IMG/VR virus record: IMGVR_UViG_3300046327_000277
Location: 1 to 33,068 of that record
From: a virus
Direction: 5' to 3' (one strand)
DNA: 33,068 nt
Below the pieces are notes generated by a model. The model did no database searches and was not told where the DNA came from. It saw only the letters and a program-made list of their open reading frames with translations. A program made the translations under genes and the position numbers. Of the stretch, positions 6,777-27,369 are shown in pieces. How positions within the stretch are numbered: position 1 is the stretch's first letter; every line of letters begins with the position of its first letter.

Positions 6777-8154
6777 AAAAAACCTGCACGCCTATCAAAA
6801 GACAAGCGTTGCGCACATAATCGAAAACCTCCAATGCGGGCTATTTTTAGATATGGGCCTTGGAAAGACTGTTTCGAGCTTGACAGCTGTAAAAAAGCTT
6901 ATCTTTGATTTAGACATATCTACGGCCCTTGTCATAGCGCCCAAGCGCGTAGCCGAAAAGGTGTGGACCGACGAAGTGCACAAATGGAAGCACATTTCGG
7001 ATTTGCGCGTGTCCGTCATAGCGGGCTCGGAAAAAGAGCGCATAGCTGCCCTTAAGAAAGATGCCGACGTATACACCATAAGCCGCGACAATATAGCTTG
7101 GCTGTGCATGTACTATGGCGGAAGCATGCTGCCATTCGATATGCTTATCATAGACGAACTTAGCTCGTTCAAAAGCGCGAAAAGCATACGTTTCAAAGCG
7201 CTCAAGAATGTTAGGAACAGTTTCAGCCGCATAGTGGGCCTCACGGGCACGCCTGCACCTAACGGCCTTATCGACCTGTGGAGCCAACTGTTTTTGCTTG
7301 ACGGCGGCCAAAGGCTTGGGAAGCACATAACGAGCTACCGCGATTCGTACTTCAAGCCGGACAAGCGCAACGGCGCTACCATATTTTCATACAAGACGGC
7401 GCAGGACGGCGAAGAGCGCATATATGCCAAAATAAAGGATATTTGCCTATCTATGAAGACCGAAGACTATTTGAATATGCCCGAATTGATTACGCACAAC
7501 GTTATGCTCGAGCTGCCTCCGAAAGCGCTCAAAGCATACATGGACTTCGAAAAAGAAGAGGTGCTTGAACTAGTCAAAGGCTTAGACGAAACGGAGACCA
7601 TATCCGTAGCCAACGCAGCAGCCTTATCTATCAAGCTGCTGCAGTTCGCTAACGGCGCCATATACCGGGAAGACAAGACGCACGCACCAATGCACGATAT
7701 AAAGCTAGATGCCTTAGAAGATATTGTAGAGGCAGCCAACGGCCGGCCGGTCCTTGTCGCATGGTCGTTCAGGCACGATTTGATGCGCATAAAAGAGCGG
7801 CTTAAGGCTTATGACGTCCGAGAGCTCAAGACAAGCCAAGACATTGAAGATTGGAATGACGGCAAGATTGAGGTTATGCTATTGCACCCCGCCTCAGGAG
7901 GGCACGGGCTGAACCTGCAGCGCGGCGGCAATACGTTAGTTTGGTTCGGCCATACTTGGAGCTTGGAGTTATACCAACAGCTTAATAAGAGGCTTCACAG
8001 GCAGGGGCAGACTTCAGTCGTGAATATGTACAAGCTAATAACTGCCGGGACGATCGACGAAAGGGTCATTGCTGCCCAAGAGCAGAAAGCCGAAGGGCAG
8101 AATAGGCTAATGGATGCAGTTAAGGACCTTATCAAAAAATACCAAAAGCCATGA
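6766..8154 (+). CDS. SNF2-family DEAD-like helicase/ATPase
   Basis: A 462-residue SF2 ATPase of the SNF2 type. Motif I (Walker A) is 'DMGLGKTVSS' (29-38), motif II is 'IIDELSS' with DE at 130-131, motif III is 'GLTGTPAPNG' (158-167), and the C-terminal domain ends in motif VI 'NKRLHRQGQTSVVNMYKL' (about 408-425). Such proteins are regular companions of VapE-type primases and VRR-NUC nucleases in phages. They are thought to remodel DNA or displace proteins during replication and recombination, rather than unwind long duplexes. The gene overlaps VRR-NUC by 11 bp and the deaminase by 4 bp (ATGA). The call is sure at family level. Confidence 0.93.
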   Translation: MLSEKNLHAYQKTSVAHIIENLQCGLFLDMGLGKTVSSLTAVKKLIFDLDISTALVIAPKRVAEKVWTDEVHKWKHISDLRVSVIAGSEKERIAALKKDADVYTISRDNIAWLCMYYGGSMLPFDMLIIDELSSFKSAKSIRFKALKNVRNSFSRIVGLTGTPAPNGLIDLWSQLFLLDGGQRLGKHITSYRDSYFKPDKRNGATIFSYKTAQDGEERIYAKIKDICLSMKTEDYLNMPELITHNVMLELPPKALKAYMDFEKEEVLELVKGLDETETISVANAAALSIKLLQFANGAIYREDKTHAPMHDIKLDALEDIVEAANGRPVLVAWSFRHDLMRIKERLKAYDVRELKTSQDIEDWNDGKIEVMLLHPASGGHGLNLQRGGNTLVWFGHTWSLELYQQLNKRLHRQGQTSVVNMYKLITAGTIDERVIAAQEQKAEGQNRLMDAVKDLIKKYQKP

Positions 8155-8558
8155 AACAGGAAGAGCTAGACGAACGCTATATGCGCATGGCCGAGATATG
8201 GGCCGAAAATTCACGAGCTAAGAGGCTTAAGGTCGGGGCCTTGATTGTCAAAGATGGGTCAATCATATCCGACGGCTACAATGGCACTCCCGCGGGCTTC
8301 GACAACGAATGCGAAGACGCAGACGGAAACACTAAGCCAATAGTGCTTCATGCCGAAGCCAATGCAATTGCCAAAATTGCCAAAAGCAGCAATAGCAGCT
8401 TGGATTCTACGATTTATGTATTATATTCGCCTTGCATAGAGTGCGCAAAGCTTATCATTCAAGCAGGCATTTCGCGCGTTGTATACAAGCACACATACAG
8501 GCTTTTAGATGGTTTAACCCTGCTGGCTCAAGCTGGTGTAAATTTGACTCAAATATGA
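8151..8558 (+). CDS. dCMP deaminase (deoxycytidylate deaminase family)
   Basis: A 135-residue zinc-dependent deaminase. The signature 'HAEANAIAK' gives the zinc ligand H67 and catalytic E69, and 'SPCIECAKLI' gives C95 and C98. The upstream 'DGYNGTPAGFDNECED' is typical of dCMP deaminases and contacts the nucleotide. The expected reaction is dCMP to dUMP, feeding dTMP synthesis for phage DNA. No thymidylate synthase or dUTPase is seen in this window, so that step would rely on the host or on genes outside. It overlaps its neighbours by ATGA on both sides. Confidence 0.92.
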   Translation: MKQEELDERYMRMAEIWAENSRAKRLKVGALIVKDGSIISDGYNGTPAGFDNECEDADGNTKPIVLHAEANAIAKIAKSSNSSLDSTIYVLYSPCIECAKLIIQAGISRVVYKHTYRLLDGLTLLAQAGVNLTQI

Positions 8559-8920
8559 ATATCCTAGAGAGGGCCGACCAAATCGTCAACGGCCGCACAG
8601 AAGAGAAGGAGCGCCAATACGGCGACTTCCACACTACCATGAACAACATGCGCGACATATTCAATGCTATGACCGGGCACAAGCTCGAGACGCGCGATAT
8701 GTACATGGCTATGGTCGCAATGAAGCTTGCACGGCAGAGGTTTGCGCATAAGGAAGATAACCTATTGGACCTAGTCGCCTACGTTGGCTCGCTGAACGAC
8801 TTGGAAGAGCAGATCAGCGAATTCAAAGCAAGCAAAGAGGCTGAAGCACGGCAGCACGAACCTCAATCTATTGGCTGTTGCAGTTGTGGCTTTCCTGCCA
8901 CTGTTGGATGCAACTGCTGA
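8555..8920 (+). CDS. DUF6378 family phage protein with a Cys-rich tail
   Basis: A 121-residue protein starting at the ATG that overlaps the deaminase stop (ATGA); an in-frame extension to 8432 lies wholly inside the deaminase gene and is not used. 'ILERADQIVNGRTEEKERQYGDF' at the start and 'KEDNLLDLVAYVG' near residue 82 match DUF6378, a small helical phage family often found beside nucleotide-metabolism genes; its acidic residues recall nucleotide pyrophosphohydrolases, but that is only a guess. The last ~17 residues add five cysteines (CCSC...C.C). This tail is encoded by DNA that belongs to the iteron array starting here, so it may be a by-product of repeat spread rather than a functional domain. 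Confidence 0.82.
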   Translation: MNILERADQIVNGRTEEKERQYGDFHTTMNNMRDIFNAMTGHKLETRDMYMAMVAMKLARQRFAHKEDNLLDLVAYVGSLNDLEEQISEFKASKEAEARQHEPQSIGCCSCGFPATVGCNC

Positions 8921-8923
8921 CAA

Positions 8924-8946
8924 ATCCAAACAATGATTGTTTGGAT
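8924..8946. repeat. Palindrome 1 of the AAACAAT array
   Basis: ATCCAAACAAT (8924-8934) and ATTGTTTGGAT (8936-8946) form perfect 11-bp arms around a single G, four bases after the DUF6378 stop codon. The flank ATCC/GGAT differs from the other palindromes but is fully complementary. Confidence 0.9.
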
Positions 8947-8979
8947 GCAATCTATTGGCTATCAATCAGTTACAGAAAA

Positions 8980-9015
8980 GCGCCTAAACAATATAAACAA
9001 TGATTGTTTAGGCGC
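8980..9015. repeat. Palindrome 2 of the AAACAAT array
   Basis: GCGCCTAAACAAT (8980-8992) and ATTGTTTAGGCGC (9003-9015) form perfect 13-bp arms. The 10-nt loop holds a further AAACAAT copy. The GC-rich flank GCGCCT/AGGCGC is unique to this palindrome. Confidence 0.9.
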
Positions 9016-9046
9016 AACTGTTTGATAATCAATGAGTTAAGTACCC

Positions 9047-9188
9047 ATAAACAATATAAACAATAAAACAATAACAAAAACAAAGACCTCTGCATCCCTA
9101 TATTATATGAATATCTATAATACCAATATTCATATATTCTATATTTATCCCTTCTTATTTATATAATATTATTGTTTATATTGTTTAT
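9047..9188. repeat. Long inverted repeat enclosing the AT-rich core
   Basis: A 20-bp arm at 9047-9066 (two AAACAAT copies, 9 bp apart) is the perfect complement of 9169-9188. The arms enclose about 100 bp of AT-rich sequence, which itself holds the inverted repeat TATATGAATAT (9104-9114) / ATATTCATATA (9126-9136). Confidence 0.85.
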
Positions 9189-9206
9189 ATAGATATAAGA
9201 TATTGA

Positions 9207-9275
9207 TTTTCAATCAGTTACACATAAACAATGAGATTTTTATTGTTTATGGGACTTTTCGTAAGTGATTGAAAA
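9207..9275. repeat. Nested inverted repeat (iteron outside, palindrome 4 inside)
   Basis: Outer arms 9207-9221 and 9261-9275 are 15 bp with one mismatch and carry the CAATCAGTTAC-type element in opposite orientations. Inner arms CATAAACAAT (9223-9232) and ATTGTTTATG (9242-9251) are perfect. Confidence 0.8.
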
Positions 9276-9288
9276 CCAATGGCTTACG

Positions 9289-9319
9289 CATAAACAATGA
9301 ATTGAATACATTGTTTATG
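9289..9319. repeat. Palindrome 5 of the AAACAAT array
   Basis: CATAAACAATG (9289-9299) and CATTGTTTATG (9309-9319) form perfect 11-bp arms around a 9-nt loop. It comes one base after the iteron at 9267-9287 and is the last palindrome before the early promoter. Confidence 0.88.
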
Positions 9320-9333
9320 GCTAAAATAATTTG

Positions 9334-9432
9334 AAAATAATTGGTCAAAAACTTTCAAGTGTCAATACTAGTGCCTACTTTAGCAACATAATCAAACACT
9401 CAAACACTCAAACACTCTAACACACCAACACC
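9334..9432 (+). promoter_or_regulatory. Early promoter-leader repeat, copy A
   Basis: A conserved unit: AAAATAATT, then TTTC (9353-9356) as a -33-like box, a 19-bp spacer, TACTTTAG (9376-9383) as the -7 box, and a 49-nt leader with no G that ends CACACCAACACC right before the ATG. The leader contains three tandem CAAACACT units. The spacer holds the direct repeat AGTGTC/AGTGCC, a possible operator. It is nearly identical to copy B at 9764-9854. Confidence 0.75.
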
Positions 9433-9774
9433 ATGGCTACTTTAGAAAACATCAACGCCGCAATGCAACTTCTGCCCGCAAGTTTCTATCTTGGAAAGCG
9501 TAGCAGCTTAGAAGCTTTAACAAACAATAAAGATGGGTATATGTTTAAGGTTTCCGGCGTCGTTATTTTGAACGGCACAGAACTTAGCTTAGAAAACTAC
9601 TACGTAAGCGTAGATGGTATTGTTAGGGCCTTAGTAAGGCATGCAAGTGTTATGCAAGACACTAACATTGAAGAGTTGGTGCAAGTTGGCACTCAAGTTC
9701 TTGATTTGCTTAATGTTGAAACAGTTATGTATTGCTTAGAAAAAGGTTTGGTTTTTACAACCAAAAATAATTAG
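9433..9774 (+). CDS. Small early protein of unknown function, 113 aa
   Basis: I do not recognise this protein. It is 113 residues, soluble, without a signal peptide, membrane segment or cysteine motif. The middle is predicted beta-rich ('YMFKVSGVVILNGTELSL' around residues 36-53) and the end looks helical ('LVQVGTQVLDLLNVETVMYCL'). It is the first of a run of small genes behind the early promoter-leader repeat, and codes with a more AT-rich, less biased codon choice than the replication genes. The start is fixed by the conserved leader ending ACACC before ATG. Its stop TAG lies inside the next copy of the repeat, so gene plus leader form a cassette. Position and promoter suggest an early accessory role such as host takeover or anti-defence, but nothing in the sequence proves that. 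Confidence 0.8.
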   Translation: MATLENINAAMQLLPASFYLGKRSSLEALTNNKDGYMFKVSGVVILNGTELSLENYYVSVDGIVRALVRHASVMQDTNIEELVQVGTQVLDLLNVETVMYCLEKGLVFTTKNN

Positions 9775-9854
9775 TCAAAAACTTTCAAGTGTCAATACTA
9801 GTGCCTACTTTAGCAACATAATCAAACACTCAAACACTCTAACACACCAACACC
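9764..9854 (+). promoter_or_regulatory. Early promoter-leader repeat, copy B
   Basis: Matches copy A except for one substitution (A at 9773) and one fewer CAAACACT unit. The -33-like TTTC is at 9783-9786 and the -7 box TACTTTAG at 9806-9813. The first bases overlap the end and stop codon of the upstream gene. Confidence 0.75.
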
Positions 9855-10155: not shown

Positions 10156-10698
10156 ATGTACGAAGGAAAAGAAATATGCCAAGGCTGCCAAAAGCCGGGC
10201 ACCGAGAAGCCAAGGCAGCACAGGCATGGATTGTGCAGCGGATGCAACAAAACACTTAGGGCTGGCGCTGAAGTGCTTGCCATAGAAAAGTCAGATAAGG
10301 CGCCACGCATTATGGTGCGTCAGCACTTCCATGCTTTTAAGTCTAAAAGCGCAAACGATGTTGCTTTTGCCTTATTGTCAGCACTTAATGAGCCAAATGC
10401 GCCGTATATGCGAGCAGATACGCTTAAATACACCTTTGGCACAAATCAGTTCTATATAGTGCGCGAAGACGTGTTTGAAGCGCTCAAGCCTGTGATGCTG
10501 AAAATAGACGAAGAGCTGTATAAGCATGAAATGGAGATGTGCAATATGTCTTACACTGTGCGCGACGCCGTGGCAGCCGAAAAAGAGCGCATCTATAACG
10601 AAGGTGTGCAGCATGGGCGGAACCTGCTTATGCAACTGAACAGCGGAACCTTGACACTCTCGGACCTCGATAAAAATGTTGCCTACACTGAAAAATAA
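10156..10698 (+). CDS. Small protein with an N-terminal zinc ribbon, 180 aa
   Basis: A 180-residue protein of unknown family. The N-terminus has four cysteines, C8-x2-C11 and C27-x2-C30, with a basic, His-rich stretch between them, a likely zinc ribbon that could bind nucleic acid. Residues 55-120 look like an alpha/beta domain ('SANDVAFALLSALNEPN' ... 'TNQFYIVREDVFEAL'), and the C-terminus is helical and charged ('AVAAEKERIYNEGVQHGRNL'). It lies 4 bp after the preceding gene and has no promoter of its own, so it shares copy B. The stop TAA lies at the start of promoter-leader copy C. A regulatory or nucleic-acid-binding early protein is a reasonable guess; no function is assigned. Confidence 0.78.
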   Translation: MYEGKEICQGCQKPGTEKPRQHRHGLCSGCNKTLRAGAEVLAIEKSDKAPRIMVRQHFHAFKSKSANDVAFALLSALNEPNAPYMRADTLKYTFGTNQFYIVREDVFEALKPVMLKIDEELYKHEMEMCNMSYTVRDAVAAEKERIYNEGVQHGRNLLMQLNSGTLTLSDLDKNVAYTEK

Positions 10699-10781
10699 TT
10701 GGCCAAAAACTTTCAAGTGTCGATACTAGCACCTATATTAGCACTATCAAATTATCATTCACTCTCAAACACACCAACACC
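10691..10781 (+). promoter_or_regulatory. Early promoter-leader repeat, copy C
   Basis: A diverged copy: AAAAATAATT and CAAAAACTTTCAAGTGTC are kept, the -33-like TTTC is at 10711-10714, and the -7 box is TATATTAG (10734-10741). The 40-nt leader after it has no G and ends CACACCAACACC before ATG 10782. Confidence 0.7.
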
Positions 10782-16331: not shown

Positions 16332-16349
16332 CCTTAAAAACAAACAGGC

Positions 16350-17291
16350 ATGGCCCTCACACCAGAAACCTTAAAGGCTACCACTGTGCTAGCTGCACTA
16401 ACAGAAGAGCAGCTAGCAGCGATAGCCACGCTTTCAGTCAATGACGAAGCGCGCGTTGTTTCTTCCAAAGTAAACGAGCATTTCAGCAAGCTTGAAGAAA
16501 CCGTAAAAGCTGCAAGCGGCGTGGCAAAAAAAGACGGAGAGAAGCCGCAAGAATACATATCGCGCACCTTGGTAGCTTTCAAAGAGCAAGCCACGGGAGC
16601 GGAAGCATTCAAAACCGAGTCGGAAAAGCATAAAGCTAAAATAGCTGAATTGGAGACCGCTATCAAGGCGGGCGCCGGCTCAGACATTATTGCTAAGCAG
16701 CTGCAAGATTCTAGGAACGAGCTTAGCGCGCTGCGAAACGCTTTCGATTCTGAAAAAGCTGCTTGGGCAGGAAAGGAAAAAGAGCTAGTTGGCGAAATTT
16801 CTAACATACGTGTGGGCTCAGAATTCAGCAAAGCTTTGGCCTCGCTCAAGTTCAAGCCTGAATATCCCAAAGAGGTCATTGAAACCATGGTAAGCAATGC
16901 CAAAGAAAAAGTGATGCGGGAATATAAGCCAGATTGGCTAAATGTTTCAGGTTCCACGGCTTTGGTATTCAGAGACCAGACGGGAGAGATTGCAAGGAAC
17001 AAAAGCAACGCTTTGAATCCATACACGCCCGAGGAGCTGCTAAAACAGCATTTGCAGGTTGTGCTAGACACAGGCAAGACGCAAGAGGGAGCCGGCACAA
17101 AAGGTGAAGGTTCTGCAGGGCAAAAATCGGACCCTGTGGACCTGCGAAGTGCAAAAACGCAGCTTGAAGCAGACAGGGCTATTGCTGCTGCTTTGATGGC
17201 GAAAGGGCTTACTAGAGGCAGTGCAGAATTTGCTTCAGAGCAGACAAAGTTAAGGGCTGAAAACAAAGTAAGCCTGCTTCCTATCCGCTAA
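16350..17291 (+). CDS. Capsid scaffolding protein
   Basis: A 313-residue, highly charged and mostly helical protein. A long heptad-like coiled coil runs over about residues 85-150 ('ESEKHKAKIAELETAI', 'LQDSRNELSALRNAF', 'EKAAWAGKEKELVGEI'). The C-terminal part has a disordered Gly/Ser/Lys linker and a basic helix 'LTRGSAEFASEQTKLRAENK', the usual capsid-binding end of scaffolds. It lies directly before the major capsid gene, separated by a hairpin and promoter. Together these features fit a scaffolding protein that shapes the prohead and then leaves. No protease motif is seen. The open frame on the opposite strand over this gene is a mirror of its biased codons. Confidence 0.85.
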   Translation: MALTPETLKATTVLAALTEEQLAAIATLSVNDEARVVSSKVNEHFSKLEETVKAASGVAKKDGEKPQEYISRTLVAFKEQATGAEAFKTESEKHKAKIAELETAIKAGAGSDIIAKQLQDSRNELSALRNAFDSEKAAWAGKEKELVGEISNIRVGSEFSKALASLKFKPEYPKEVIETMVSNAKEKVMREYKPDWLNVSGSTALVFRDQTGEIARNKSNALNPYTPEELLKQHLQVVLDTGKTQEGAGTKGEGSAGQKSDPVDLRSAKTQLEADRAIAAALMAKGLTRGSAEFASEQTKLRAENKVSLLPIR

Positions 17292-20857: not shown

Positions 20858-21102
20858 GCTTAACAATCTGTTTGGCACTGCTATCTAGCTTTGCCGTTTT
20901 GACTTTGGGCAAAGCTGGCCTATTTGAGTATTGCGCGCTGCACGCCCCTAAGCAAGTGGCAAAAGCGTGCTCATGCAGCTTGTGCGTTTCTTTTTGGGCA
21001 AATGTCGTTGTAGCCGTCTTGGTATACATGCTAATTGGCGACCAAACCGTTTTAGTGTGCCCGCTTGTAGCCACTCCGTTGACTAGAATATTGATACAGT
21101 GA
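20851..21102 (+). CDS. Small membrane protein with a CxCxxC motif
   Basis: An 83-residue protein with a hydrophobic N-terminal segment (about 2-19), a second (about 46-62) and a hydrophobic end. Between them is 'CSCSLCVSFWANVVVAVLV' (from residue 40), close to the C-x2-C-x-x-F-W pattern of DUF1360-like membrane proteins that I have seen in Bacteroidota phages. It is oddly placed, between connector and tail chaperone genes, where soluble proteins are expected. It overlaps the gene before by 7 bp and the gene after by 4 bp (GTGA). It might act in the host membrane (superinfection exclusion or DNA entry) or be carried in the virion; this is open. Confidence 0.8.
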   Translation: MLSLTICLALLSSFAVLTLGKAGLFEYCALHAPKQVAKACSCSLCVSFWANVVVAVLVYMLIGDQTVLVCPLVATPLTRILIQ

Positions 21103-21860
21103 AGACAAGCAAAATAGCCAGCCAAAGCGTAAGATATTACGATAGCTTAGAGGAGCTGCCAATATGGCGGTTCCAAAAGTTCAATAAGTTTCTGCTAGTC
21201 GATGCAGGCGTCGGAAGCGACTTGGCAAGCATAGACAGCAAGATTGCTAAAATAAGGGCACACCTGAGCGCGGGGCGCACCAAAGAGGCAGATATTGAAC
21301 TTGTTAATGTGCGGCAAGCTATGCTATTGGTTATGTCAGAGGTAAGCCCAAAGCACATGGCTTTTTCTGCGCTTGTGCATAGCATAGGCGAAAAAGAATA
21401 CAGCAGCCCGTCGGACTCAGCAATGCAAGAGATATTTGCATTGCTGAACACAGAAAAAGCAAGCGCCCTTTCGGCGCTAGTCGATGCAATGCGAAAAAAG
21501 TTCGACGCGGAATTAAAAGCCTTGTTTCCGGTGGCTTTCGATTCCGCAAAAACTAACCAACAATATGACCTGCTTAAAAGGCGCGTGCTTGCTATAACCA
21601 AGGGTATAACAAAGCTCGTAAGCTATAGTGCAGAGCTTGATGCGTTAGACGACAGCATATTGACTGTGCACAAACCGGAAAAATTCATGGGCGCCGATAA
21701 CCCGGAAACAGCCTACGATAAAAATTTCAACGACTTATGCGCCTTTATGCTTACGCAAAACATACAGGCGCCGAAGCAAATGATGACCATAGACTTCTAT
21801 GCCACGTTTGAGTTAATAAAGAAGTCTGCAAAACCAAACGCTAAAAAACATGGCAGATAG
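21099..21860 (+). CDS. Probable tail assembly chaperone-like protein
   Basis: A 253-residue protein starting at GTG within the GTGA overlap with the previous gene. The N-terminus 'YYDSLEELPIWRFQKFNKFL' followed by 'DAGVGSDLASIDSKIAKI' and 'AMLLVMSEVSPKHMAFSALV' is a conserved pattern directly before the tape measure gene of Bacteroidota siphophages. Mostly helical. The position is that of tail assembly chaperones, which hold the tape measure protein during tube polymerisation. No slippery site for the classical chaperone frameshift was found. It ends 11 bp inside the tape measure gene. The family recognition is good; the chaperone role is inferred from position. Confidence 0.82.
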   Translation: MKTSKIASQSVRYYDSLEELPIWRFQKFNKFLLVDAGVGSDLASIDSKIAKIRAHLSAGRTKEADIELVNVRQAMLLVMSEVSPKHMAFSALVHSIGEKEYSSPSDSAMQEIFALLNTEKASALSALVDAMRKKFDAELKALFPVAFDSAKTNQQYDLLKRRVLAITKGITKLVSYSAELDALDDSILTVHKPEKFMGADNPETAYDKNFNDLCAFMLTQNIQAPKQMMTIDFYATFELIKKSAKPNAKKHGR

Positions 21861-24063
21861 TCAACTGAAATACTCGGACTTTGTCAAGCCGGATGAAAGC
21901 ATAACAAATCTAATAGCACAGCTGGAGGAGTTGCTAAAGCACTATGGCATGCTATACGGCAAAATAAAGGCGGACGCGCAAGACCTAGAAAAGTCAATGA
22001 AGTCTGCATCTACAGCCACGGACACCGGCCGCAAAGCCATTGAAAAAGCGACGGCTGAAGCAGACAAATTAGCTGCGGAATATGAGAAGCTTACGGCTGC
22101 GCAATCAGACACTGCCAATGAGCTTGCTAAGCTGCGCGCAGAGCAGCAGAAACAGAACGCCGTAAACAAGCTAACTGAAAAGTTTAATAACTCGCTAGAG
22201 GGTTCCTATGACAAATTAAGCGCGCAGTATTCTTTGAATGTTATGAAGCTGAATGCTATGTCAAAAGCAGAGCGTGAGCTATCGCAAGAGGGCTTGATGC
22301 TAACTGCATCTACAAAAGACGTACGCAATGAAATGAAACGCTTGAAAGAAGAAACCGAAGACCATCGCTTGTCTGTGGGTGACTACGAAAAAGGGTGGCG
22401 TGGACTTGTGCAGCAAATGTCAGAAACTAACGGTGCCGCTGGTAGCGCTGCGCAGGGTATTGGTGGCTTAGACGACGCGGCAAAAAAACTTTTAGCTAAT
22501 CCCATAGTGTTGATGTTATCAATACTTGCAGCCACGCTATATGGTCTGTTTAGCCTATTCAAAAGAACCGAATCGGGAGCCGACTTGATGGCAAAAGCCA
22601 CGGGCGCTTTGAACGCTGTTTTGTCTATCGCTGTAGGCGTAACAGACAAACTATATAAAGCTATGCTTTCGGCTTTTGAAAACCCACAGCAGGCGCTTAA
22701 AAACTTAGGAGAGGCAATAGTAAAACAGGTTCTTAATAGGCTTAATTCGTGGACGCTAATAGCTAAAGCAGCTGGTCAAGCTATGCAGGCCCTTGCAAGT
22801 AGGGATATGGCAGCATTGGAACAGGCTGGCAAAGACGCAGGCACGGCTTTGATTCAAATGACTACCGGCTTAGATGCCCAACAGCAACGCGAATTTGGCA
22901 AAGCTATAGCAGATACTACGGAAGAGATAAAAGCGCAGACAGCGGCATTTGTGGCGCTTGAGGCTTCTCGCAGAGGTGTACGCAAAGAAAACAGGAACCT
23001 GCAGAGAGCACTTGAAGAAGTAATAACAAAAGAGGAGCTAGCAAAAGCAGTTGCCGACGACGCGACAAAGTCTTTCAAAGAGCGCGAAGCGGCAAACAAA
23101 GAAGCCCAAGAAGCAACAATAGAGAGGGCTAAGCTTGAAACAAAAATAGCGTCTAACAATTTAGGGCTAATTAGCCGTGAAATTGATATGCGCAGCAAAA
23201 ACGGCGAAAACGTGGAAGAACTGCTTGATGCGCAGCTCGGAGCCTATTCGCAGTTGAAAGCTGCGCAGCGCAGTTATCTGTTGGCTGTGCGCGACAACGA
23301 AAAAATAGAGTCTGAGCTCAAACAGGATAGGCTTGAAAAAGACCTAGACATATTGATTGATGGTTTTGAAGCGCAGCAAGCTATAAACTTAGCTATTGCA
23401 AACGATACTACGCTAACTGAACAAGAGAGGCGCAAAAAAATAGAGGAGACTCGGGCACTAGCTGAAAGGTCATTTGCAAAGCAGATGGAAACCATACAAC
23501 AGTTCACAGGTATAAGCTTGGATTCGACGGCCCTAATAACAGAGGCGGATGCTGTAGCGCTTAACCAAAAAATAAGGGCTTATGACCTTTCGGAAGTTAT
23601 TGAGGGCAGATTGCTTGAGGCAGTCAACGGCCGCAAGAATGCTTTGGTGGGGCTATCTGAAGCAGAAAAAAAGCTAGCTGCAGACAAACTAAAAGCAGAG
23701 CAAGACGAACTTAAGCTTAAAAAAGAGAGTGCAGCAAAGCAATACGATAGCGCCTTGGTAGCCTATGAGCAGGAAAAAGAGCTGCGCATATCTGAAATAG
23801 ATTTGATGCAGGTTACGGAAGCTGAAAAGACAAAACTAAAGCTTGCTGCAGAAAAGGACCGGCTTGAAAAAATGCTTAAGCTAAACGCCGACGTTGAGGG
23901 CCGCATGACAGATATGCAGGTGGCCGCTGCTCGCAACACAATAAAGAAACTTGAGGCAGAAATAGCCAAAGCAGGTGGTGGTGAAAATAAAGACTTGTAT
24001 GCAGCCCTTGGTTTTGATTTGGACGACGAGCAAAAGCTGTTTCAGATTCGCTTAAGTTCATAA
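21850..24063 (+). CDS. Tape measure protein, N-terminal and central part (frame broken)
   Basis: A 737-residue helical protein with long coiled coils (for example 'AIEKATAEADKLAAEYEKL', 'LEKDLDILIDGFEAQQAIN', 'AEKTKLKLAAEKDRLEKML') and a hydrophobic stretch 'PIVLMLSILAATLYGLFSLF' near residue 220. This is the look of a tape measure protein, which sets tail length and helps DNA enter the cell. It ends early, at TAA 24061-24063, after 'DLYAALGFDLDDEQK'. In relatives I know, that block continues into 'AISDSL' and a C-terminal domain with 'YGDGG..FL.GGSHASGND'. Both appear here in the frame of the next entry. A lost base at the CAAAAG run (24031-24036) explains the break. Confidence 0.88.
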   Translation: MADSQLKYSDFVKPDESITNLIAQLEELLKHYGMLYGKIKADAQDLEKSMKSASTATDTGRKAIEKATAEADKLAAEYEKLTAAQSDTANELAKLRAEQQKQNAVNKLTEKFNNSLEGSYDKLSAQYSLNVMKLNAMSKAERELSQEGLMLTASTKDVRNEMKRLKEETEDHRLSVGDYEKGWRGLVQQMSETNGAAGSAAQGIGGLDDAAKKLLANPIVLMLSILAATLYGLFSLFKRTESGADLMAKATGALNAVLSIAVGVTDKLYKAMLSAFENPQQALKNLGEAIVKQVLNRLNSWTLIAKAAGQAMQALASRDMAALEQAGKDAGTALIQMTTGLDAQQQREFGKAIADTTEEIKAQTAAFVALEASRRGVRKENRNLQRALEEVITKEELAKAVADDATKSFKEREAANKEAQEATIERAKLETKIASNNLGLISREIDMRSKNGENVEELLDAQLGAYSQLKAAQRSYLLAVRDNEKIESELKQDRLEKDLDILIDGFEAQQAINLAIANDTTLTEQERRKKIEETRALAERSFAKQMETIQQFTGISLDSTALITEADAVALNQKIRAYDLSEVIEGRLLEAVNGRKNALVGLSEAEKKLAADKLKAEQDELKLKKESAAKQYDSALVAYEQEKELRISEIDLMQVTEAEKTKLKLAAEKDRLEKMLKLNADVEGRMTDMQVAAARNTIKKLEAEIAKAGGGENKDLYAALGFDLDDEQKLFQIRLSS

Positions 24064-24074
24064 AAACAGCCATA

Positions 24075-24851
24075 GTGGATTTGCTTGATGCAAGGATAGC
24101 AGCCATAGATGCTTCACTAGAAAAGTCGCAAGAAGAAAAAAGCGAAATACAGAGCCGCTACGATTTAGAGCTTGAAAATAGGGCTAATGGCTTGGCAAAC
24201 AATGCAGCTCAAGTGCAAAAAGAATTAGAGTTGAACAAAGCAAAAGAAGATGCTTTGTTGAAACAGAAAGCCAAGGCGCAAAAAGCAAAGGAGCTCATAG
24301 ACACAGCTACACAGATAAGCAGTTTAATAACGGCTTCTTCAGAAATATGGGCTAGCTTAAGCGGAATTCCAGTTGTCGGGCCTGTGTTGGCAGTTGCGGC
24401 AATAGCTGCTATGTTTGGTAGCTTTGCAATTTCAAAAATAAAAGCCAAGGCAGCGAGCAAGCAGCAGTATGGAGATGGCGGGTTTGAATTTCTAGATGGT
24501 GGCTCGCACGCCTCGGGAAACGATATTCCCATAGGCATGACTGCAAATGGCAAACAGCGCACTGCTGAAGGTGGCGAGGCTTTAGCCGTCATAAATAAGA
24601 AAAACACGCGCAAATATAAGCATCTAATACCTACGATTGTAGATTCACTCAACGCAGGAAATTTTGAAAAGCACTTTGCGGATTCGGCTGCTTACGCTAC
24701 GCAGATAATGTCAGTCTCAGATGCAACGGACACTAGCACTATGGAAAAGCGCTTAGAGCAATTAGTTAGCCAAGGAAACGCGCGCACCTACACAGATGAG
24801 CGTGGGCGCTTAGTAGAAATAAAAAACAACTTAAAACGCACTTATGTTTAA
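24075..24851 (+). CDS. Tape measure protein, C-terminal part in the -1 frame
   Basis: 258 residues if read from the GTG at 24075; the frame itself is open from about 24018, where it reads 'AKAVSDSLKFIKTAIVDLLD', the expected continuation of the upstream gene. The part contains a coiled coil ('AQVQKELELNKAKEDALLKQ'), a hydrophobic stretch 'IPVVGPVLAVAAIAAMFGSF', and the hallmark tape measure end 'YGDGGFEFLDGGSHASGND' with 'GGEALAVINKKNTRKYKHL'. The GTG is 11 bp after the upstream stop, so re-initiation could make it as a second polypeptide. Otherwise it is the C-terminus of one ~1,000-residue protein joined by frameshifting or by an error in the sequence. It overlaps the next gene by 8 bp. Confidence 0.8.
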   Translation: MDLLDARIAAIDASLEKSQEEKSEIQSRYDLELENRANGLANNAAQVQKELELNKAKEDALLKQKAKAQKAKELIDTATQISSLITASSEIWASLSGIPVVGPVLAVAAIAAMFGSFAISKIKAKAASKQQYGDGGFEFLDGGSHASGNDIPIGMTANGKQRTAEGGEALAVINKKNTRKYKHLIPTIVDSLNAGNFEKHFADSAAYATQIMSVSDATDTSTMEKRLEQLVSQGNARTYTDERGRLVEIKNNLKRTYV

Positions 24852-27369
24852 TTGGACACTAAAAACTAAAAAGCCAACCACAGTCAATATGCTAGACCCC
24901 GAGCGCGCTGTGCTAGGATTCAAGTGGATTGGCGGCGAGGCTGTTGTTAGCTTGACAGATAACTACGTGCGCCTGCCAGTTGTTGCGCTAGAAGTCTATT
25001 ATCTGCAGACGCCTAGCTTTGTTGCGACTTTCACAAACGCAGCATTCTACGATGCCAACGGCTTGCTGCTTTCAGAATCAGTGCCAGTGCTTGGAGCCAC
25101 AGCGCCCGCCGGAGCCGTTACGGGCTTCTTTTCATTTGTCATTGCGGACACTATAGAAAATTTAGCTATAGTGTCCGGTGCCGGGGCGTTTGAACTGTAT
25201 TACGATTCTGTGCCGGCAAATCCGATGTATAGAAAGCTTAATAGGACCGTCAAGGCTGAGCCGGGGCAGCAGTTCTATAGGGAATCAATAGATGGAAGCT
25301 TAGTGTTCTTAAAAAGCGACTATGACTATATAGTTGGGCTGCCGTTCGATACCACTATAAAAGTGCTAGGCTTCGATTCAGAAAGCGGCCAAAGCATAAG
25401 CGCCTATTTTCATTTGACCGACTGCGAGATAGATTCAGACGACAAGAAATTGACGGCTAAGCTAAGCACCACAGACCTATATGAAGACTTCCTAGGCAGC
25501 AAAGACAAGGTATTTAACTTGCTTGACATAGCGGCCGAGTTAGAGCCTGTTTTGCTTACGCGCAGGCCTATTCTGCAGGTATATGTAGCCGGAGACAATG
25601 TGCTAACGAACATAGTGTCAGGCGCTTATTGGGAACAGCAGCTTAGCATAGACCCGGTATATGATGACAGCGTTTTAACAGGAACGCACAAGATGTTCAA
25701 TGCTTTGAACATACGCGCCATTCCCGCAAGCTATGTCCCACTGCTAAGCACAGACGTAACCGGGAGCTACAATAGCAGCCGCGTTAATACGACAAAGCCA
25801 TACAAGCTTGTAGAAACAGCAATACCGTTTGTTGGCTTTTTCAAGCGCAAGTTTCACATAGTGCCCGTTGCGGCAACTGAAGGCGCGGGGTGGTCACTTT
25901 CAGCACTATATGAAACCGAGTACACAGACTATTTTAATATAAGCGTCAATGCACTGCTTTTCAAAGGTGTCAATGGCCAAACAGGCGAATTTTATTTTGC
26001 AGAGTACCGGATATATGCACGGCTTTATACAAGCTTATTGGAGGTAGCCGCTGTTGCTACGCACCCAATACCCGCTAACGATTTGGTGCCTGCAAACCAA
26101 AACTATACAAGGATTGTACCCTATGGCATAAACCAGTTTGTTGTATACGACGAATTCCAAGGCACTCCCAACAAGTTTGGCCGCGTGCCTGAAGGTTCGC
26201 CGGATTCGGGGCTTTATTACAGGCAGCTTCTGCCCGCTGTTGAATCGGGCGCGTCTAACGCAATACCCATATCGCAGAGCAATTGGAAAGCCGTTTCGCT
26301 GTGGTATTACGATACGAGCGCTACGAAGTATTTCTTGCGCGTAGAGGGCGAAAAAGTGCTTTTGCGCGACTGCTTCCCGCTGCACTCGGTTATACAGGCG
26401 CTGCTTAATGCTAATAAGCTTAATTTGACTTTCACAGCGTCTTCGGAATGCTCGCAATTCCTATACGCTGCAATTAACCCACTTGGAGGCTTCACGTTCT
26501 TGGATTTTGATTTTGCAGGCATTTTAGACGCGTACGCAGGAAACCTAAAATGGCTTTTGACGCCCAAGTCTAACGCTATATACGGCAATTACGAGCAGCC
26601 TGCGGCAATAGCTGAAATAACACTTGAAGGCGTGCTTAAAATGCTCAAGACTTGCTTCAACTGCTATTGGCACCTAGAAAATGGCATGCTGCGCATAGAA
26701 CATATTTCATGGTACGACAAGGGCGGCACGTATTCAGGCGTAGAGGTTGGGGCAGACTTGACTAGCTTGATACAGCCAAGGAACGGAAAGCCGTGGAGCT
26801 TTGCTCAAAACAAGTGGAGCTATGAAAAGCAGAATATGCCCGAGCGCATTGAATTTTCTTGGATGGACAAAGTAAGCTCGGGATTTGAAGCGGCCCCCGT
26901 CAACATGATAGGCAAGTTCGTGCAGCCAGGGAACATAGAGGAGCGTTCAGCCACAGGATTCACTACAGATGTGGACTTTATGGCAGCCAACCAATCGGAA
27001 GTGTCTAAGCAAGGCTTCTGCATGTTTGGGGCAGTGATTCACGAGGGTATAAACAAAGCGCCTTTCGTAGAGGTAGCTATACCCGGCTATGAGCTTTCTT
27101 TGCAGAATGGGTTTTTGTCATTCCCGTATCTGCGAGATAGGTTCTTGCTGTTCAACCTGCCCACGGACAATGTAGAGATTGATGGGCAAGAGCAGACAAT
27201 AATTGGCAACGTAAGCCGGTTCAAAAAACAAGACGTTGCCTATCCGCACGTAAGCTCAAACTATTACGCGCTAGTTAGAACCGAACTAGGCTTAGGCAAA
27301 CTGCAATCGACGTCGCTAGACTTCGAAAGCATGATGGAAAAATCGACTATAATGCACGAAACAATATAA
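24844..27369 (+). CDS. Large tail/baseplate protein, 841 aa
   Basis: An 841-residue soluble protein behind the tape measure gene, where distal tail and tail-hub proteins are encoded. The N-terminal ~200 residues are strand-rich; the middle has 'YETEYTDYFNISVNALLFKG' and 'VPYGINQFVVYDEFQG' like other Bacteroidota phage baseplate proteins. The later part has 'LKMLKTCFNCYWHLENGMLR' followed by 'EHISWYDKGG', which resembles a hub domain seen in tail-associated proteins. No lysozyme or peptidase motif is visible. The start overlaps the preceding gene by 8 bp and the next gene begins 4 bp after the stop. The structural role is well supported by context; the exact baseplate part is not known. Confidence 0.82.
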   Translation: MFNWTLKTKKPTTVNMLDPERAVLGFKWIGGEAVVSLTDNYVRLPVVALEVYYLQTPSFVATFTNAAFYDANGLLLSESVPVLGATAPAGAVTGFFSFVIADTIENLAIVSGAGAFELYYDSVPANPMYRKLNRTVKAEPGQQFYRESIDGSLVFLKSDYDYIVGLPFDTTIKVLGFDSESGQSISAYFHLTDCEIDSDDKKLTAKLSTTDLYEDFLGSKDKVFNLLDIAAELEPVLLTRRPILQVYVAGDNVLTNIVSGAYWEQQLSIDPVYDDSVLTGTHKMFNALNIRAIPASYVPLLSTDVTGSYNSSRVNTTKPYKLVETAIPFVGFFKRKFHIVPVAATEGAGWSLSALYETEYTDYFNISVNALLFKGVNGQTGEFYFAEYRIYARLYTSLLEVAAVATHPIPANDLVPANQNYTRIVPYGINQFVVYDEFQGTPNKFGRVPEGSPDSGLYYRQLLPAVESGASNAIPISQSNWKAVSLWYYDTSATKYFLRVEGEKVLLRDCFPLHSVIQALLNANKLNLTFTASSECSQFLYAAINPLGGFTFLDFDFAGILDAYAGNLKWLLTPKSNAIYGNYEQPAAIAEITLEGVLKMLKTCFNCYWHLENGMLRIEHISWYDKGGTYSGVEVGADLTSLIQPRNGKPWSFAQNKWSYEKQNMPERIEFSWMDKVSSGFEAAPVNMIGKFVQPGNIEERSATGFTTDVDFMAANQSEVSKQGFCMFGAVIHEGINKAPFVEVAIPGYELSLQNGFLSFPYLRDRFLLFNLPTDNVEIDGQEQTIIGNVSRFKKQDVAYPHVSSNYYALVRTELGLGKLQSTSLDFESMMEKSTIMHETI

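Follow-up and report, generated by a model that had tools for sequence, protein, structure and literature searches.

Why does the tape measure protein (TMP) gene of a metagenomic phage run through two reading frames, and does the break reflect the biology of the virus or the state of a single record? The gene lies in the window, by which we mean the whole 33,068-bp stretch analyzed here (positions 1 to 33,068 of IMG/VR record IMGVR_UViG_3300046327_000277), which has no terminal repeats and probably represents a partial genome. The virus is a marine-type Bacteroidota phage, a siphophage; the Croceibacter phages P2559Y (43,153 bp) and P2559S are among its relatives, and its terminase is 67-72% identical to those of relatives in other IMG/VR contigs.

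The first of the two frames (21850..24063, plus strand) encodes the N-terminal part of the protein, 737 amino acids (aa) that close with GFDLDDEQK-LFQIRLSS before a TAA stop codon at 24061-24063, the last eight residues (LFQIRLSS) being out of frame. The -1 frame, open from 24033, reads K-AVSDSLKFIKTAIVDLLDA and continues into the C-terminal part of the gene (24064..24851, plus strand), in which ORF callers list a 258-aa ORF at 24075-24851 that starts with a GTG 11 nt past the TAA. The window has no continuous TMP ORF that reaches about 1,000 aa. Both parts belong to the PHROG tape measure profile phrog_20660 by profile match: profile positions 3-372 and further stretches match the first ORF (E = 6.8e-144), and positions 849-1106 of 1106 match the second (E = 3.4e-108). 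Because the same profile matches both ORFs, we conclude that this is one gene in two frames and not a chance arrangement, and the earlier note, which had described a TMP gene broken by a net -1 change, was correct on this point and in its coordinates. Directly upstream of TMP stands a virion structural protein or tail assembly chaperone-like gene (21099..21860, plus strand; phrog_8914, E = 2.7e-56); in Elizabethkingia phage TCUEAP2 the gene immediately upstream of TMP is annotated as a tail assembly chaperone. The tail gene directly downstream (24844..27369, plus strand; phrog_19383) is intact.

What looks like a frameshift in this key gene of the virion is settled by a second record, which represents the same virus. 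IMGVR_UViG_3300048690_000214 (25,720 bp), a close relative in IMG/VR that was found with the C-terminal part of TMP, aligns end to end with window positions 6177-31892 with 0 mismatches: the 25,716 bases of the window that the two share are identical, and the alignment is interrupted by one 4-nt gap. The gap, the sole difference between the two records, sits exactly at the frame break, and the DNA of the first ORF is identical in both up to 24037. Where the window has a single AAGC unit (24034..24037, plus strand), the second record carries two in tandem, reads GAG CAA AAG CAA GCT GTT (E Q K Q A V) at the junction, and has an intact TMP gene (1,011 codons open without a stop; 1,001 aa from the ATG), in which the peptide across the junction is DLDDEQKQAVSDSLK. 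The repetition of AAGC leaves the exact position of the junction ambiguous over the interval from 24033/24034 to 24037/24038. This was the only other record of the window virus that we found (in IMG/VR); a pattern scan for more records with a piece of window DNA gave no match, nor did a comparison of the C-terminal part of TMP with GTDB genomes.

The state of the gene in relatives indicates which of the two forms is the derived one. In a profile search of viral contigs, the C-terminal region of TMP lay in one uninterrupted frame in all of the best 80 loci, retained by E-value from 157 confirmed (a choice that may favor intact copies; such searches omit the window's own record). Six residues, neither more nor fewer, correspond to DEQKQA in 77 of the 77 sequences aligned at the junction, and relatives with D-D/E-Q-K-x-A-V/I at this position align to the intact copy without gaps. 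Five of 25 individually searched records held TMP, with an uninterrupted frame in each; a single TMP ORF is found in annotated phages of Croceibacter, Parabacteroides, Elizabethkingia and Bacteroides, and in MT835637, a fecal record without annotation, TMP is also one long frame. The TMP of P2559Y (AGM14078.1; 54% identity over residues 3-1001), which has the motif LNDDQKQAITDS at the junction and, as in the window phage, precedes a large tail gene of comparable length, is a single intact ORF, whereas the window copy is broken. Given that relatives are uniformly single-frame with six residues here, the state of the window is private and derived. The converse, a 4-nt insertion in the second record, was rejected, because the TMP encoded there has exactly the length of the family.

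We put the probability at roughly 0.94 that the break is a private 4-nt contraction of a tandem repeat, either an artefact or the mark of a real minor or defective genome. On this reading, one AAGC unit was lost from an AAGC-AAGC pair inside the TMP gene of a Bacteroidota siphophage that normally encodes one 1,001-aa TMP, and the loss would be a contraction of the slipped-strand type. The number of exact period-4 duplications in the region shared by the two records (117, versus 111 expected in shuffles) is that of chance, indicating that AAGC-AAGC is an ordinary site. The lesion that had been guessed from one sequence, an A missing from the AAAA run, came out wrong, as the second record shows the AAGC pair to have contracted by 4 nt; the frame arithmetic behind the proposed addition of one A was sound, but one A is not the difference seen in relatives, which is 4 nt. 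Adding back a single A would, moreover, leave five residues at the junction, compared with six in every aligned relative. Assembly error and mutation, both among the options offered at that stage, still fit, in the form of a private 4-nt contraction.

As to how the contraction came to be in the record, we somewhat favor an artefact of assembly, amplification or sequencing, or the entry of a minor variant into the consensus, either being confined to this record. The one place where the two records differ lies in a gene that we expect to be essential, at a residue kept by all aligned relatives; however, a change of 4 nt is not a homopolymer error, and to create it, reads or a step of gap closure would be required. 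De Bruijn assemblers ordinarily call for variant-bearing reads, so some molecules may really carry the contraction.

A true in vivo frameshift mutation, present in a sizeable fraction of the population or in a defective (decaying) genome in the sample, is possible and to our minds somewhat doubtful. The change from AAGC-AAGC to AAGC is plausible as replication slippage, and the rest of the record equals the second record base for base, hence the quality of the assembly is high. Yet no substitution accompanies the change in 25.7 kb, and the window is unlike a decaying prophage, since replication, packaging, head and tail genes are present among the ORFs scanned, no lysogeny gene was seen among them, and no other gene of those scanned is apparently broken. 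A mutation of this kind would also have to be reconciled with the role of the protein: mutants of lactococcal phage TP901-1 with a TMP shortened by 30 residues at its C terminus gave no plaques, and heads were the only structures seen (PMC5099701), and by analogy TMP is expected to be essential in the window phage. The product of a genome truly carrying the lesion would be without about 270 C-terminal residues, including a hydrophobic segment and a conserved tail-tip part, and a TMP truncated in this way should not build infectious tails. We lean toward an origin in amplification, sequencing or assembly, or in a minor defective variant that would have entered the consensus, rather than in a viral lineage that is fit.

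It is very improbable that the gene is truly split, with the GTG at 24075 beginning a separate C-terminal protein, as the earlier note had allowed, and we reject this reading. This GTG, 11 nt after the stop, does open a long ORF; nevertheless, every related locus surveyed is unsplit, no relative surveyed keeps both a split and an internal start, the Val codon of the GTG is without counterpart in aligned relatives, and AGTTCATAAAAACAGCCATA, which precedes it, contains no Shine-Dalgarno-like site, although Bacteroidota often lack one. The GTG is only a possible restart.

Less probable still is a programmed -1 ribosomal frameshift, or transcriptional slippage, that joins the frames at GCAAAAG. 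The frames overlap around CAAAAG with a net shift of -1, and the lambda-type G/GT programmed frameshift, like the window case, involves the tail module and a net -1 change. The lambda-type frameshift chaperone gene stands upstream of TMP. It is in this chaperone gene that the tail-module frameshift of lambda-type phages occurs, and it is conserved (PMC5009743), whereas the frame change of the window lies inside TMP and is private. No slippery heptamer of the form X XXY YYZ is found at the frame overlap: the sequence there is G CAA AAG, which had rightly been called a poor site, and a shift would require the tRNA that decodes CAA to pair with GCA. In folding compared with shuffles, no RNA structure that would stimulate a shift emerged (z = -0.04 for 81 nt and 0.63 for 141 nt). 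A perfect 7-nt inverted repeat (24036-24042/24064-24070), equally present in the intact copy, does not form as such in the predicted folds. An in-frame copy exists in the otherwise identical virus, and no relative surveyed uses a two-frame arrangement (single frame in the best 80 of 157 loci and in the 77 aligned sequences); regulated slippage, which had also been proposed, thus finds no place here, and programmed recoding as a conserved mechanism is refuted. A reversible change in AAGC copy number that switches TMP off and on in the virus population, which the existence of two forms might suggest, is scarcely credible, contingency loci typically having far more than two 4-nt units.

The missing AAGC unit, private to the window, most probably reflects an artefact of the sequence or a mutation that knocks the gene out, rather than a novel means of TMP production, and the break should be annotated neither as programmed frameshifting nor as two genes.

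Other features of the window were observed away from the tail module. A leader of about 90 nt is repeated at 9334-9423, 9764-9853 and 10692-10781 (copies one and two are 96% identical, the third 63%), in each case directly in front of the start codon of a small ORF (ORFs at 9433, 9855 and 10782); these repeats are probably promoter or leader modules, and the first two copies are identical in IMGVR_UViG_3300048690_000214. The adjoining region (8900-9330) is AT-rich and non-coding, with many ATTGTTTAT and ATAAACAAT motifs in direct and inverted orientation, and is possibly an origin or a regulator-binding region. A dCMP deaminase gene (PF00383, phrog_174) lies at 8151-8558, after a gene for an SNF2-type helicase. 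On the minus strand, a 310-aa open frame at 16334-17266 runs almost wholly opposite a 313-aa ORF (16350-17291) and is probably a shadow frame.
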